Below are positions 6,259-21,170 of a DNA stretch of 42,085 nucleotides, one piece after another. The DNA is taken from the IMG/VR virus record IMGVR_UViG_3300042261_000294, positions 1 to 42,085 of that record. One strand, 5' to 3'. The notes below the pieces were generated by a model that saw only the letters and a list, made by a program, of their open reading frames with translations, made no database searches and was not told the DNA's origin. A program made the position numbers and the translations under genes. Each line of letters begins with the position of its first letter. Position 1 is the stretch's first letter. Origin of the DNA: a virus.

Positions 6259-6453
6259 ATGCTCGTATTGTCACGACACGTAGGTGAGTCGATCATGATC
6301 GGAGACGACATCACAATTACCATCTCCGAGATACGCAATGAGCGTAAGGTGCGGGTGGCCATCGAGGCTCCCAAGGACGTACCAGTGCATCGCCGTGAGG
6401 TGTACGAGGCCATTCAGCGTAACGGTGGAGTACAGAGTAAGAAGGAGAGCTAG
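6259..6453 (+). CDS. csrA: CsrA-family translational regulator
   Basis: A 64-aa RNA-binding protein that normally binds GGA motifs in hairpin loops near ribosome binding sites and blocks or stabilises mRNAs. Nearly the whole length matches the family: MLVLSRHVGESIMIGDDITI at the N terminus, then 'VRVAIEAPKDVPVHRREVYEAI'. The RNA-binding residues Leu4 and Arg44-type positions (VHRREV) are present. ATG 6259 has AAAGGA about 7 bases upstream. It is the last + strand gene before the convergent region. In bacteria CsrA controls carbon storage, motility and flagellin; a phage copy could reprogramme host mRNAs or its own. The GGA in its own ribosome binding site allows autoregulation, an inference. 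Confidence 0.96.
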   Translation: MLVLSRHVGESIMIGDDITITISEIRNERKVRVAIEAPKDVPVHRREVYEAIQRNGGVQSKKES

Positions 6454-6536
6454 TAACAAGGGAGGGAGGCAGCGGCCCCATCAACGGCGGAGCAAGAACC
6501 GTGAGAGACCGCTGCCTACCCTTACCCTACCTTTGG

Positions 6537-6750
6537 GCACCCACTAACCCCCCGCTAGGGGTACCCGCGTTTAAGGCCCCTAGCAAGCCCTACAATGCAC
6601 GCTTGCACCTTAAAGGTGCTGCCATACCAGCCCCTTTGCCGCGCTTACTAGGCGCAACGCTAGGGGCCTTGCTGGCCTTGCCCATTGGGGGCTTGGCTGG
6701 CCATAGCTACCCCTGCAAGCCCTACCCCACATTGGGGGGCAAAGCACTCT
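6537..6750 (-). repeat. GC-rich dispersed element, copy B (longest)
   Basis: Between convergent csrA and the GT2 gene lies GC-rich sequence dominated by CCCCTAG/CTAGGGG words. It contains a perfect 12-bp inverted repeat, AAGGCCCCTAGC at 6573-6584 with GCTAGGGGCCTT at 6659-6670. It shares the exact 18-mer GCGCAACGCTAGGGGCCT (6652-6669) with the copy near 20.6 kb, plus AAGGCCCC-AGC-GCCCTA-CGCTTGC and TGCCCATTGGG blocks. On the - strand this element follows, and partly forms, the 3' end of the GT2 gene. It may act as terminator or RNA-stabilising structure for both convergent transcripts. Bases 6454-6536 show no gene. Confidence 0.7.
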
Positions 6751-7550
6751 GGTACCTCCCCTCCATACCTGTGCAGGGCGAGTTTCTCTTGTCGTAATAC
6801 AGCTTCATCGAACCAGGCTTTACGACTTCTCCAGGTCTTTGCTCTAGAACTACGCTCACCGCGATTTTCGTAGTACCTGGTCTTATCCTCAACATTCTCT
6901 TGACTTTTCATAAACCCATAGTGGAAACAGACCGGTGGAAACACATAGGAGTACCCTCCACCAAGATCTCTGACCACTCGGTGCTTCACACGCACGTAGC
7001 CACGCATCAAACTGCGACCGTTACGGCTGGGATGATTGTGGTTGTCCGTGTATCTGTCCCCTCGCCTCACATGCCAGAACCGCGTGTGCGGCACATCGTA
7101 GTATCCACCCGTGATAAAGTGTTTCTGACTGTGCCAGAAGTGGATCTGTGGCACGGTGTAGGCCGAGTACTGAGGATGCCGACGCATGTTGTCAATGAGC
7201 TCACGTAGATCCTGCTTGCGGTAGAACTCATCCGCGTCAATGACAATCAACAGTCCTGGGTCAATGTACTCCATGTATCTGTTGCGCAGCTCACACTTTG
7301 CATTGACGCCACCCATGCTCGTCCAACCGTGTTGGATAAACGTGATCTTGTGATCAGGGTCGGGAAAGCTCTGCACAATCTCTGCGGTGCGGTCCGTACT
7401 TAAACCACGTTCGGTAACACGCTGCGGAGGGTATAGACGATCGGCGCCTTCAACGACCACGATACGGTCTGCGAACTCGTAGTGCTGCTCGAGATTCTTG
7501 CCGAGGTACTCTTCCTCGTTGAGTACAATCATGCCGATGGTTACGGTCAC
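6660..7550 (-). CDS. glycosyltransferase family 2-like protein
   Basis: Transfers a sugar from a nucleotide-sugar donor. The GT-A fold N terminus reads 'IGMIVLNEEEYLGKNL', followed by 'RIVVVEGA' and the metal-binding DxD-type motif in 'VIDADEFY'. Charged, aromatic C-terminal half with 'HFWHSQKHF', 'HTRFWH' and 'CFHYGFMKS' segments as in phage and bacterial GT2 proteins. It starts at GTG 7550 within a GTGA overlap with the methyltransferase. The last ~28 residues (Gly/Ala/Pro/Gln-rich) are encoded by the GC-rich repeat and the stop TAG lies inside it, so the original C terminus was probably replaced. First or last member of the glycan cluster; substrate unknown. Confidence 0.85.
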   Translation of the reverse strand: MTVTIGMIVLNEEEYLGKNLEQHYEFADRIVVVEGADRLYPPQRVTERGLSTDRTAEIVQSFPDPDHKITFIQHGWTSMGGVNAKCELRNRYMEYIDPGLLIVIDADEFYRKQDLRELIDNMRRHPQYSAYTVPQIHFWHSQKHFITGGYYDVPHTRFWHVRRGDRYTDNHNHPSRNGRSLMRGYVRVKHRVVRDLGGGYSYVFPPVCFHYGFMKSQENVEDKTRYYENRGERSSRAKTWRSRKAWFDEAVLRQEKLALHRYGGEVPECFAPQCGVGLAGVAMASQAPNGQGQQGP

Positions 7551-16170: not shown

Positions 16171-17085
16171 TTACAGTGTAACCGGAACGCCTAAAGCTAG
16201 AAAGTTACTTGCCCCATAGAGTTGAATCGGGGGAGTGAGTACGTGTCGATGGTTGTAAGGATCCGTACACTCACTACCATACCCGTCCAACAGCACGTAG
16301 GGTACAGGATTTCCGAGGGGATCACGAGCCCTGGTGAAGTTGGCGAGGTTTGTACGGTCAATAGATGGATTAGCAGCTACCAACTTGGGATCAACAACAC
16401 GATGGCCCATATCCACCACCTTGTACAGATCAAACGTGTCGTAGCGAATGTCAAACTCCAGGGTACGCTCGTAGTAGAACGTGCAGACGCCCCACACCAT
16501 GCGACGCCATGCGACGTTGCGCAGCTTGATGCAGCGAGCACTCAGTCCCCATAACGGAGACGAGTTGAGAGTATTGATCATCGGGGCAAACAGATTGAGC
16601 TCCAGGTTCAACCGAGTCTGCGTAATGTTGACCGTGGGGCGGACCAGATCTTTCTGGGTCCAAACAGGCTCAAGGCTGGAGCTTAGAATGATTGACCCAT
16701 CGTACCGCTGACAGGTGTCCTCCTGGTAGGTGCCAAAGCTGCCGCTGATAACGTCAGGGTTGCTAAGAGGACTGATGAAGGGATTGGTAGCACACACCTT
16801 CCAGGGTTTGGTGGTAAAGTTGTACTTGAGGATCCACCAGAAGTTGCTTTCGTTTTTGATGACCGACTCGCAGTCAACGATGGGCGTGCAGCGTGCTCCG
16901 GCGTCGTAGTCGTTACCGATGTTCCAGGACGAGCCGATGGTGGGTAGATCCGGGGCGAATGTGACTTGCTGCGGACCATCTTCCTCATCGTCGGTCTCCA
17001 CAAGGAACCGTGCGTAGTAGTTGCGGTTCATCTCCATGTCACGACCGCCACCCCACTCCAACACGCCAAGATTACGCATAACCAT
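16171..17085 (-). CDS. distal tail / minor tail protein (304 aa)
   Basis: ATG 17085 shares its A with the tape measure TGA and has GGGAG 8 bases upstream. The 304-aa protein starts 'MVMRNLGVLEWGGG' and is beta-rich with paired Cys (C67/C72-type, 'ARCTPIVDCES'). Segments such as 'LWGLSARCIKLRN' and 'VCTFYYERTLEF' recall phage proteins that line the tail tip. Directly downstream of the tape measure gene is the usual place of distal tail proteins in siphoviruses. Specific function inferred from order. Confidence 0.68.
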   Translation of the reverse strand: MVMRNLGVLEWGGGRDMEMNRNYYARFLVETDDEEDGPQQVTFAPDLPTIGSSWNIGNDYDAGARCTPIVDCESVIKNESNFWWILKYNFTTKPWKVCATNPFISPLSNPDVISGSFGTYQEDTCQRYDGSIILSSSLEPVWTQKDLVRPTVNITQTRLNLELNLFAPMINTLNSSPLWGLSARCIKLRNVAWRRMVWGVCTFYYERTLEFDIRYDTFDLYKVVDMGHRVVDPKLVAANPSIDRTNLANFTRARDPLGNPVPYVLLDGYGSECTDPYNHRHVLTPPIQLYGASNFLALGVPVTL

Positions 17086-19736
17086 CAGGCTGCTCCCAAA
17101 GCTAAAGCTTCAAATGAGATCGGCACACGGTTTGCCAGCTTTTCCGTAGAGACCGCGATACGTTCCAGGCGTATGATCATTTCCTGCTGTGGATTGCCTG
17201 GGCTGGGAGCAGGTGCCCCGTCCTTAGGAGCAGGACCTCCAGGACCAGGTACACCGGGACCAACACCCGCTGGAGCTCCTGGACCTGCCTCGGCTGCTCC
17301 GGCACGCCTTGCTGCTTCAGCTTCAGCCTTGAGCAAACCCTGCATCTTGGCCTGACGCTCCATAGCTTCATTGACCATCTTGCGGTGTTGAGCTGAGCCA
17401 GCCTCTACGGCGTCCAGACCTGTAACGGTAAAGTTAACATTGACCTCGAAGTTGGTCTCCTGCAACTCCGTACGAATGTCACGCAAGGCGTCCTGATAAA
17501 CCTTGCTGTCCCGCTCGCTGCCCTTGAAAGCCTCGTTGAGCTCCTTGATCTTCTTCATGTAGGAGTTGATGGGATCGTAGCGATCTTTGTACTGCTGCTG
17601 GAGCTGGTCACGCTTGAGACGCTCTTCGTTTTCGGCCTTGGTTGCTGCAACAATGTCCTTGGCTACACCAGCTCGAGCTTCCTCTGCATCGAGGGCAACT
17701 TTCTTCGCTTCAGCTTGAGCGAGACTCTTCTTAAGAGTCTCTTCCTCAGTTTGCAGTTTATTGGCAGCATCTGCATCACCCTTGGCTAAGAGCTCCAGCC
17801 TTTCCTTTTCCAGTTCGATCAGTTTGTTAGCATATCCCGTCATGCGTTCGTTTAGAGCGGCTTGCTTTTCGCCCTGCTTCCACAGCATCTCATCATGCTT
17901 CTCAGCCTGCTTTCTTTCGTGCTCAGCCTGCCGATCAGCATTGGCCTTTCTGGCAGCATCACGCCGTGAGGTCGGCTCAGTAACATCTTTGGCCGATGTT
18001 TCGGCTCCAGACATTCTGTCCATAGCATTCTTGATTGCCGCGTTCGGACCTATGACGCCAGCTTCCGCAATAGCGCGAACACCACCCGCAACATCTCCGG
18101 CCCCCTTCGTAGCCATATTAATCGCAGTCATTACGCCACCTAGGATATTTCCCATGTCCGCACCGATGACTGCAGTCAAACCCGTAGCAGCAGTTTTAAG
18201 AACCTTGAATGCTCCACCCATCAAGGTGATAAACTGATCAACAAACACGGAAGCTGCTGCGAACGTTGCTCCGAAGGTGGCATTCCACGTGGCAAGAAAG
18301 AACGAACCGAGACCTTCAAAGAAGTCTCTTACGGACACCCACTTGTTGATAACCCACTCGGCAACGTCTCCGAAGATGGCACGCATTTCCTCGAACACGT
18401 TCTGAACGATCAGCCATGCGTCTTCCAGTGCGTCCGTAACCGTATCCCAGATCTCAAGCCCTTTGACCATGATGTCGGTAAAGATGGGATCAAGGTCTTT
18501 GAGGAGCTTGGTCCACAGGGTGACGATTTCGTTAAGGGCTGCCTGAGCCGCTGCTTTCCAGTTACCCGCCGACAGGTTCTTGAAGATGGCCCCGAAACGT
18601 TCGCCCGTAATGGCGTTCATTTCGTCCAGGGACTTCATCCAGGCGACCTTGGCACCCGACCAGGCAATCTTCACAGCGAGCTCAAGGTTGCCAGCCTTCA
18701 ACGAGTTGAAGATACCGCCCATGATCTTGTCAATGTACTCGATGATCTGCTTGCCATAGGCGACTACGGTACTGGCAAACTTCTTGATACCTTCAGAGTA
18801 CTGCTCCCAGACTTCACCTGCACCACTGTTTAGGAACTTTCCCGTAGCAGTATCCCAGGCGAGCCATGCAGCCGTCGCCGCAGTGATCATACCAATCAGC
18901 GGGCCGAGGAAGGTGCCGATGGTAGTCAATGCCGTACCGATACCAACAAGGATACCGCCAAGGTAGGTGAGCTTCTGAGCAAGGTTCATGGCCGAGTCGA
19001 TCAGCTCGCGGTGGGACTGCACCCACTTGGTAGCCCAGGTAACGAGACCGATGATGGTCTTGTTGAACTCCGTCAAGCGTTTGGCTACCGAGGCACCGAT
19101 CTGGTTCCAGAAACCTTGAAGGGCTTGCTTGACACGGTTCCAACTGTCGGCCAGATCTTCACCCGCCTTGACAGCGTCCTTGCCAACGACCAGCCCGAAC
19201 CTCTCCGCCTCCTTACGCCACTTCTCGTACTCGGCTGAACCTACGCGAATGGTCTTTGTGAGGTCTTCCATTGACTCACCAGTACGCTCCATCATCATGG
19301 CATACACTTGGGCCTGCTCGCTGGTGAGCTTAACGACCAAGCCGAGTTGTCGATAAGCCTCGGTGTTCTTGAGCAGATACTTCTGTTCCTCAGCAGCAGC
19401 ACGAGCCATCTTTTCAGAATCACGGATCATGTCCGTAATACTCTTGCTGTAAGAGGAGAAGTCGGTGCCTGCTTTGGTTAACGGCGCACTGATGGCGGCA
19501 CTCATGCCCAGACTGGCAGCACCCGCCTTCTGCATGGCGGAGCCCATCCCGGTCATCATGTTCTGGGCAGCTTTGAAGGCGTCGCTGAAAGCCTTAGTGA
19601 TGCGTGATCCTTGACGCTCACCCCAGGCTGCGGACTGTTCCGTCTGCTTCTCAACGTCCTTGAGCATCTTCTGGTATTCGACCTGGTTACCCACGAGCCG
19701 AACCACCATACGATCAACTTCAAATTCAGATGCCAT
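17085..19736 (-). CDS. tail tape measure protein
   Basis: Sets tail length and helps DNA entry. ATG 19736 (AAGGA 8 bases upstream) gives 883 aa; the longer frame to 19838 overlaps the chaperone gene and is not needed. The product has an N-terminal domain of phage-tail type ('ASEFEVDRMVVRLVGNQVEY'), long helical/coiled-coil stretches, hydrophobic segments in the middle ('GGILVGIGTALTTIGTFLG', 'GMITAATAAWLAWD'), an Ala/Lys/Glu-rich coil and a Pro/Gly-rich C-terminal linker. It starts inside the end of the frameshift product, as in lambda G-T/H. No lysozyme or peptidase motif is evident. Confidence 0.93.
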   Translation of the reverse strand: MASEFEVDRMVVRLVGNQVEYQKMLKDVEKQTEQSAAWGERQGSRITKAFSDAFKAAQNMMTGMGSAMQKAGAASLGMSAAISAPLTKAGTDFSSYSKSITDMIRDSEKMARAAAEEQKYLLKNTEAYRQLGLVVKLTSEQAQVYAMMMERTGESMEDLTKTIRVGSAEYEKWRKEAERFGLVVGKDAVKAGEDLADSWNRVKQALQGFWNQIGASVAKRLTEFNKTIIGLVTWATKWVQSHRELIDSAMNLAQKLTYLGGILVGIGTALTTIGTFLGPLIGMITAATAAWLAWDTATGKFLNSGAGEVWEQYSEGIKKFASTVVAYGKQIIEYIDKIMGGIFNSLKAGNLELAVKIAWSGAKVAWMKSLDEMNAITGERFGAIFKNLSAGNWKAAAQAALNEIVTLWTKLLKDLDPIFTDIMVKGLEIWDTVTDALEDAWLIVQNVFEEMRAIFGDVAEWVINKWVSVRDFFEGLGSFFLATWNATFGATFAAASVFVDQFITLMGGAFKVLKTAATGLTAVIGADMGNILGGVMTAINMATKGAGDVAGGVRAIAEAGVIGPNAAIKNAMDRMSGAETSAKDVTEPTSRRDAARKANADRQAEHERKQAEKHDEMLWKQGEKQAALNERMTGYANKLIELEKERLELLAKGDADAANKLQTEEETLKKSLAQAEAKKVALDAEEARAGVAKDIVAATKAENEERLKRDQLQQQYKDRYDPINSYMKKIKELNEAFKGSERDSKVYQDALRDIRTELQETNFEVNVNFTVTGLDAVEAGSAQHRKMVNEAMERQAKMQGLLKAEAEAARRAGAAEAGPGAPAGVGPGVPGPGGPAPKDGAPAPSPGNPQQEMIIRLERIAVSTEKLANRVPISFEALALGAA

Positions 19737-20546
19737 GACGTCGTTCCTTTTGGTGAGCTTCAGCCGCTCGTACACCACCCATCCAGATAGCCTTGGACCG
19801 AGCAATCTTTGCTTCTCGAGTTTCCTCTGCTGAGGCACTCAAGTTGAAGTCGATGATCTGGTCCTTCAGAGAGACCGGCTTCTTGTTCCACTGGCTATGA
19901 ACACGCTGAGCAACACGCATGAGATAGTAGTCCGTGCGGTTTGGAACATTCCACTGTTCGTGCAACCAAGCCTGGACCAGTCTGCATTGTCGGTCGGTCC
20001 ATTTACCCATAATGTCAAACGGGTCCAGGCCAAACTCGTGAGCTACGTGGAACCATCCTCCGTAGCTCTTCAGGAGTTTTTTGGCGACTGCTCGGGTTCC
20101 TCAAGCAGACTCTTGAACGAGGCGTACTCGCTACCCTCCAGCGTGGCTGCCCAGGCACGAAGCGTTGAGAGATGAACTGGAGAGTCATCACGGCTGAGGG
20201 CCTTTTCGAGAGATGCCTTGGCGATCGAGTCCTCACCGAAGTCTGACAGTTCCTTGGCCTTGTCGTAGAGGAGTTTCTTGACGCGGGCTGGCCAACCCTC
20301 GATTACTGCCAATGGAGGATTGCGCCCCTGCTCGTCCCACATGCAGTTGACAACGAATTTGGCCTCGACTGCGGCGAGGTCCTTGATGCCGGTGATCTTG
20401 CCGTCCGGTCCGAACTGCGATGAGGCAATGATCGAGTTGCGATGCTCAGTGGCTGTCCGACCATTAGCCTCGCGCAACGTGTAGTGCTTGCCGTCAGGAC
20501 CAACAACAGGCTCTTCCCTCAATACGATCGATCCAAAATCCAACAT
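19726..20546 (-). CDS. tail assembly chaperone, -1 frameshift product (G-T type)
   Basis: Ribosomes slipping one base back at A AAA AAC (20082-20076) leave the 158-aa frame and continue in a frame open from 20076 to the stop at 19726-19728, giving about 273 aa. The extension reads 'LLKSYGGWFHVAHEFGLDPF' and then 'MGKWTDRQCRLVQAWLHEQW'. The T-type extension has no Shine-Dalgarno before its own ATG (20010), supporting expression only by frameshifting. In lambda-like phages G and G-T coat the tape measure protein and recruit tail tube subunits. The 3' end overlaps the tape measure start by 11 bases. Confidence 0.88.
20040..20082 (-). promoter_or_regulatory. programmed -1 ribosomal frameshift site with stimulatory hairpin
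   Basis: On the - strand the heptamer A AAA AAC occupies 20082-20076 in the correct phase (CCA AAA AAC), two codons before the zero-frame stop TGA (20072-20070). A 7-base spacer (20075-20069) separates it from a perfect 8-bp stem, GAGCTACG (20068-20061) with CGTAGCTC (20047-20040), around a 13-base loop. Heptamer, spacer and stem all fit known -1 frameshift signals. Confidence 0.9.
20070..20546 (-). CDS. tail assembly chaperone, short form (G type)
   Basis: The 158-aa zero-frame product. ATG 20546 has AGGAG about 7 bases upstream. It has a beta-rich N terminus ('MLDFGSIVLREEPVVGPDGK') and a helical C-terminal half, and ends soon after the slippery site. Located between the major tail protein and tape measure genes, the fixed position of this chaperone. 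Made in excess over the frameshifted form in related phages. Confidence 0.85.
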   Translation of the reverse strand: MLDFGSIVLREEPVVGPDGKHYTLREANGRTATEHRNSIIASSQFGPDGKITGIKDLAAVEAKFVVNCMWDEQGRNPPLAVIEGWPARVKKLLYDKAKELSDFGEDSIAKASLEKALSRDDSPVHLSTLRAWAATLEGSEYASFKSLLEEPEQSPKNS

Positions 20547-20571: not shown

Positions 20572-20690
20572 AACGGGGGGTGCGTAACCAAGGCCCCCAG
20601 CGTGCCCTATAACGCTTGCCTGCCCCCTTTGGGGTGGTACTGCCCATTGGGCGGCAGCGTGCATTACGCGCAACGCTAGGGGCCTCAAAC
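20572..20690 (-). repeat. GC-rich dispersed element, copy C
   Basis: This 159-base gap lies between tail genes otherwise spaced tightly. It contains the exact 18-mer GCGCAACGCTAGGGGCCT (20668-20685) also found at 6652-6669, TGCCCATTGGG (20641-20651), and an AAGGCCCCCAGC block near 20592. The last pairs with GCTAGGGGCCT as in copy B; on the transcribed strand the one changed base becomes a G-U wobble, so the stem would persist in RNA. No gene is seen in it. It lies downstream of the tail tube gene and may set its mRNA level. Confidence 0.68.
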
Positions 20691-20705: not shown

Positions 20706-21170
20706 TCAGGTGCCCGTGCCTTGCTCGGCCACTTGGTACGCAGTCTCAACTCCGGAGATCTGACCCGTGGGGATAATCTCCAAAGTTCCTTCGAGAGGAT
20801 TCCCTTCCTGAGCCTGTCCCGGCTGAAACGCCTTGAGATAGCCAGGGAACGAGTACTGAGTACCGTCCGGCCACTTCACGGTGATCCATCCGTTGACGTT
20901 GATCAAGGCGTACACCTGATCAATCGTGCCGCTGCTGAACTTGCCCTGCACTTGGAACGGAGTGTGTTCCTTGAGCTTGCGAGGAGCCTTGGTCCGAACA
21001 GCCGTGTTGTGCATCGTGGTGGTAGGAACGGGATCACCGCCGTCGATGCCGGGGGCACCTACGACAGTTTCCCAAAACGAAAGATTGGAGTCCGCCGCAA
21101 ACGTGATAAGGGATTGATAGCCCTCATCAAACGGCGTTCCAGTCGGCGTAACACGATCAGTGTGGGTCAT
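20706..21170 (-). CDS. major tail (tube) protein
   Basis: ATG 21170 has AAGGGAG upstream. The 154-aa product is beta-rich with 'FQVQGKFSSGTIDQVYALIN', 'GWITVKWPDGTQYSFPGYLK' and 'FQPGQAQEGNPLEGTLEIIP', the strand/loop pattern of TP901-1/lambda-V-like tail tube proteins. Position immediately before the frameshifted chaperone is the standard one. Followed by the GC-rich element, which might separate its highly expressed message from the genes after it. Confidence 0.82.
   Translation of the reverse strand: MTHTDRVTPTGTPFDEGYQSLITFAADSNLSFWETVVGAPGIDGGDPVPTTTMHNTAVRTKAPRKLKEHTPFQVQGKFSSGTIDQVYALINVNGWITVKWPDGTQYSFPGYLKAFQPGQAQEGNPLEGTLEIIPTGQISGVETAYQVAEQGTGT

Follow-up and report, generated by a model that had tools for sequence, protein, structure and literature searches.

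Integron attC sites combine conserved ends with a variable, self-complementary interior and lie 3' of genes, and T4-type phages carry promoter-early stem-loop (PeSL) cassettes, intergenic stem-loops for which movement from site to site has been proposed. Short palindromic repeats have been amply documented in the chromosomes of bacteria; Rickettsia palindromic elements (RPEs) reach tens of copies there, often inside ORFs (PMC10969869), and the RNA of Correia elements can be cleaved by RNase III at the element ends (PMC10969869). Among open-licence papers, a search for phage MITEs or palindromic elements returned nothing on phages, and we found no description of a palindromic repeat that is confined to tailed phages and common to unrelated ones.

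The element analysed here lies in an IMG/VR phage record of 42,085 bp (the window, analysed over its whole length) and in other viral contigs. Its terminal inverted repeats measure 12 nt (AAGGCCCCTAGC/GCTAGGGGCCTT) and the length between their outer ends is 97–99 nt, below the 500 bp MITE criterion. With RPEs and their Wolbachia equivalents it shares a palindromic structure of roughly 100–150 bp, a divergent interior and possibly, going by one copy in the related phage G002, the ability to sit in frame inside a coding gene, but it occurs one to three times per contig, mostly in spacers, was not found in cells and has unrelated ends. The Correia and ERIC MITEs are likewise short, with terminal inverted repeats, a transcribed intergenic position and a predicted long hairpin, whereas the phage element is virus-confined, constant in length and low in copy number. 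PeSL cassettes are also stem-loops in phage intergenic regions, but they differ in sequence, no early promoter was shown here and the present carriers are not T4-type only. The conserved ends, variable self-complementary interior and location 3' of genes recall attC sites; in contrast to these, the element has a fixed length, forms no cassette array and lacks the integrase core motifs GTTRRRY and RYYYAAC, the ends in all copies being variants of AAGGCCCCTAGC/GCTAGGGGCCTT. Because no target-site duplication, parent transposase or insertion sequence, or cellular copy was found, we do not assign it to the MITE, ERIC, Correia or RPE groups.

Two copies in the window

The plus strand of the window carries genes for a helicase, a ligase, an HNH protein and a csrA-like protein, and the minus strand carries glycosyltransferase, tape-measure and virion genes. 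The element is present as two copies, B and C.

6573..6670, unstranded: element copy B, 98 nt, arms AAGGCCCCTAGC / GCTAGGGGCCTT
6573..6584, unstranded: left arm of B
6659..6670, unstranded: right arm of B
20590..20686, unstranded: element copy C, 97 nt, arms AAGGCCCCCAGC / GCTAGGGGCCTC
20590..20601, unstranded: left arm of C, one mismatch
20675..20686, unstranded: right arm of C, one mismatch

Across the whole window, B and C match each other best (score 44, with no other place above 26); they were also paired by a repeat search of the window and align by blastn with E = 4e-4 in this within-genome comparison. Both hold the exact 18-mer GCGCAACGCTAGGGGCCT, as the initial annotation had reported for two of its three copies. 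The covariance model scores B at 72.1 bits (E = 8e-17, B itself being in the training set) and C at 62.3 bits. B folds end to end, with −44.7 kcal/mol as the plus strand and −53.0 kcal/mol as the minus strand. The stem AGGCCCC-AGC/GCT-GGGGCCT noted earlier is present in both copies, not as an isolated long-range pairing but as the base of this end-to-end hairpin.

The supposed third copy near 1.5 kb (1450–1510) is no better than chance (rank 162 among 688 windows when compared with B, 187 among 690 when compared with C) and gave no covariance-model match even at E ≤ 5. A good sigma-70-like promoter match (TTGCAA-17-TACAAT, 1481–1509) lies there, just upstream of the helicase gene, and is probably part of what had been read as a copy. 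The extent first given to the 6.6-kb element (6537–6750) also shrinks, to 6573–6670; GC-rich stretches on either side (6537–6568 and 6671–6760) fold as separate hairpins, the right-hand one having the string TGCCCATTGGG in common with the interior of C. The earlier observation as a whole is real but misframed, and is partly confirmed here.

The genes around the two copies are as follows.

6259..6453, plus strand: csrA-like gene upstream of B (Pfam CsrA, E = 2e-23)
6660..7550, minus strand: glycosyltransferase-2 ORF converging on B
17085–19838, minus strand: tape-measure gene, after 20070..20546
20070..20546, minus strand: gene downstream of C, 55% identical in G002
20706..21170, minus strand: putative tail-module gene upstream of C, 81% identical in G002, product without Pfam or PHROG match

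B lies between convergent genes, and the mechanically assigned stop codon of the glycosyltransferase ORF is a TAG within its right arm. C lies between two minus-strand genes, 19 nt past one stop codon and 43 nt ahead of the next start, so that C, besides following the 3' end of one gene as had been proposed, also lies 5' of the next. Directly after the csrA-like gene there is a second conserved hairpin of about 50 nt (window 6460–6520; about 12160–12212 in contig L004), with the stem GGCAGCG...CGCTGCC, the inner loop CGGAGCARGA and compensatory stem changes between the two phages. With GGA in its loop, this hairpin could be a candidate CsrA-binding or autoregulatory site, or a terminator.

The same loci in a related phage

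A search with the helicase returned two viral contigs, G001 and G002, whose element sites look identical and which are probably the same phage. The G002 proteins around the element loci are 55–81% identical to those of the window, and G002 carries the element at both window loci: after csrA, and between the homologues of 20706–21170 and 20070–20546. The gene beyond the csrA copy differs, being a glycosyltransferase in the window and a radical SAM gene in G002. A search for further relatives with the locus of C yielded no contigs beyond G001 and G002. Retention of both copies at this level of protein divergence suggests function rather than the drift of a selfish element; since they are kept at two orthologous loci, the resident copies appear to be useful, or at least not lost.

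A third G002 copy (53289–53385) lies within an ORF (53230–54606) whose start codon is 2 nt past the upstream stop and is preceded by a plausible ribosome-binding site. The reading frame stays open across this one copy. We searched for a homologue of the ORF without the insert and found none.

Copies in unrelated phages

Neither close nor distant blastn searches of 50,697 phage records gave matches, and the 18-mer GCGCAACGCTAGGGGCCT has no exact match in other viruses. Scanning viral contigs for both arms at variable spacing did reveal unrelated carriers.

G003: 65 kb contig
G004 and G006: relatives of each other, with terminase and thyX in G004
G005: T7-like RNA polymerase, two copies of the element
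G010: viral contig with the element
G011: tail sheath and tail chaperone
G012: sigma-factor-like gene

Copy number is low (one to three per contig), which sets the element apart from most MITEs; G004 and G006 each have a second, more diverged copy nearby. Apart from the pairs G000/G002 and G004/G006, the carrier contigs have very few gene families in common, and whole-genome common descent therefore does not explain the shared element. Its gene neighbours differ among unrelated phages. The typical position is between co-directional genes, 12–27 nt past a stop and 22–47 nt ahead of a start, and some of these spacers adjoin tail-structure genes. Similarity thus persisted once more copies were added, the point on which the initial annotation had staked its claim.

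Three observations concern individual carriers. In two unrelated phages the element is upstream of a sigma-factor-like gene (L075 8119–8216 in G012, L106 5588–5685 in G003). Both G005 copies (L039 7050–7148, L072 489–587) have the T7-type-promoter-like core GTRACTATAGGGT; the perfect string occurs in these two copies only and nowhere else in G005, and we rejected a T7-like promoter as a general feature of the core. Contig G012 also contains an int-alpA RNA match (RF02996, L117 9139–9200), a hint of a temperate or integrative element there.

Length and ends

In a scan that allowed 92–104 nt, all 11 matches (about nine distinct elements) measure 97, 98 or 99 nt; no TAGC-armed copy falls outside this range. 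The arm sequence was the search key for most copies and its conservation is in part by construction; the length was not keyed. The length background is shown by a looser scan allowing 94–102 nt, in which matches without the TAGC arm end scatter across 94 to 102 nt. Weaker symmetric signals at flank positions −9, −7 and −3 (binomial p between 4e-7 and 2e-6) run about 9 nt past the arms, and the full element could span about 116 nt.

Other palindromes with AAGGCCCC ends (L079–L085, L087–L095) were set aside as different families or chance, with lengths of 94–102 nt and no TAGC. They include a different hairpin family (L085 3102–3199, L094 5972–6069, L092 3956–4052, L095 6928–7021); in L085, L092 and L094 the 3' arm overlaps a possible Shine–Dalgarno stretch just ahead of ATGGCTCGCAA and may hide the ribosome-binding site. 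A 99 nt palindrome in the 193 kb contig G013 (L086 1435–1533) has arms AAGGCCCCTAGA/TCTAGGGGCCTT, TAGA ends and mirrored flanks ACGCT/AGCGT; its interior does not fold end to end, and it is a possible divergent family member.

Fold and strand

With few exceptions, a copy folds over its whole length into a single imperfect hairpin. Arms pair better with their own partner than with one taken from another element, in the outer and the inner half alike (p = 0.0005 for nt 13–30, 0.008 for nt 29–47 and 0.0002 for nt 13–47), and a MAFFT alignment contains a 24-bp helix with 79.5% paired cells, in which pairing falls to 41–59% when the partner is slid by one column. The covariation score was matched in 0/500 shuffles, and the arms covary, with the caveat that template switching can keep the arms of a DNA palindrome alike and that both arms have one consensus. 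Outside the arms, the interiors from unrelated phages are more alike than shuffles (mean z about 2; z = 7.2 for G002_53k against G012), a likeness of sequence that supports a common origin.

No match was found in Rfam 15 for the window at the gathering threshold or for 6440–6800 at E ≤ 1, nor at the element in the other carriers. No rho-independent terminator was called at B, and no T run follows the element: GCTGGC follows the arm of B, and none follows C on either strand. Judged by the missing T run, the element is not a classical terminator.

Origin of the element

Three origins had been offered: a mobile MITE/REP-like repeat, a host-derived element and a phage RNA. The first fits best, given carriers with almost no detectable shared genes, constant length, terminal inverted repeats and one copy inside an ORF. 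We give about even credence to the reading that B and C are phage-confined palindromic MITE/RPE-like elements that spread horizontally and now lie mostly in spacers as an intercistronic hairpin. Movement between phages is indicated by the common ends and similar interiors together with the fixed size, by the lack of kinship among carriers and by the confinement to viruses. It would spread between co-infecting phage genomes as a non-autonomous unit, similar to a MITE or a Rickettsia palindromic element, its inverted ends being recognised by a recombinase or transposase, and would settle where tolerated, in gene spacers and once in frame in a gene. In spacers it would be co-transcribed to give a long intercistronic hairpin, a possible site for processing, stability or pausing; such a role would explain its retention. 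Inspection by eye of the sequence around 12 elements found inverted signals but no direct repeats of the kind left by a target-site duplication, which old copies may lose. No empty site was seen, and no gene family, transposase or recombinase is common to all carriers, whose contigs are fragments; the only recurring partners are HNH endonucleases, in four of nine contigs.

A possible but less likely explanation is that the element is a cis-acting RNA hairpin with a function in phage mRNAs (an RNase III processing site, 3'-end stabiliser or attenuator between genes), inherited and horizontally shared for its function and not mobile. Its location mostly between co-directional genes, including the spacers next to tail-structure genes, agrees with this, as do the two syntenic copies kept over large divergence, the covarying arms and the close pair G004/G006, which differs by changes that keep or improve plus-sense pairing. 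However, G–U wobble cells number 25 in the sense and 35 in the antisense, with no preference for the transcribed strand, and selection for a coding-strand RNA hairpin is therefore not demonstrated. Overall, sense and antisense strands fold with equal stability, one of the copies falls within an ORF, B and the csrA copy of G002 lie between convergent genes, no match to Rfam was obtained and no U-tract terminator was called at B. The initial annotation had the copies in the same orientation relative to their transcript; with B between convergent genes and 12 elements compared, orientation is not clearly conserved, the best common orientation agreeing with presumed transcription in 9/12 copies, with some senses uncertain and the csrA pair in disagreement.

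We consider it improbable that the element is instead a DNA-level site, an inverted repeat or extruded or single-stranded hairpin that a phage protein would bind or cleave in replication initiation, packaging or attC-like single-strand cassette recombination. A strand-symmetric palindrome without sense bias, conserved ends with a variable yet self-complementary interior of fixed length, the position at gene boundaries and the different genes beside the csrA copy in the two relatives (glycosyltransferase or radical SAM) would all suit such a site. Against it, neither attC core motifs nor a common recombinase were seen, the one to three occurrences per contig are at unrelated positions and no DNA-binding protein is common to the carriers.

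Acquisition of a bacterial host repeat by phages is very improbable, even though REP/ERIC/MITE-like anatomy is common in bacteria (PMC10969869). A both-arm scan of 84,980 prokaryote species genomes (257 Gb) gave three matches, of 100, 100 and 92 nt and none of 97–99 nt, a stricter pattern gave 0 matches in the same 257 Gb, and the covariance model had no match in 398 Pseudomonadota genomes (a weak test, as few candidates were scored per genome); the host-derived option is accordingly disfavoured. Chance sharing of short blocks among GC-rich spacers is scarcely credible: the carriers do have such spacers, and AAGGCCCC ends are also seen on other hairpins, but fixed length, covariation and interior similarity refute it.

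Significance

Returning to the reading as a mobile, phage-confined element, we tentatively propose that B and C represent a group of virus-only palindromic mobile elements, moved among unrelated tailed phages by an undescribed phage-encoded recombination, in which insertion gives the recipient an intercistronic hairpin or an in-frame peptide. If confirmed, the element would serve as a marker for genetic exchange between families of phages and would point to a possible new transposition or homing activity, and it would provide phages with a ready-made RNA hairpin able to change the expression of neighbouring genes.
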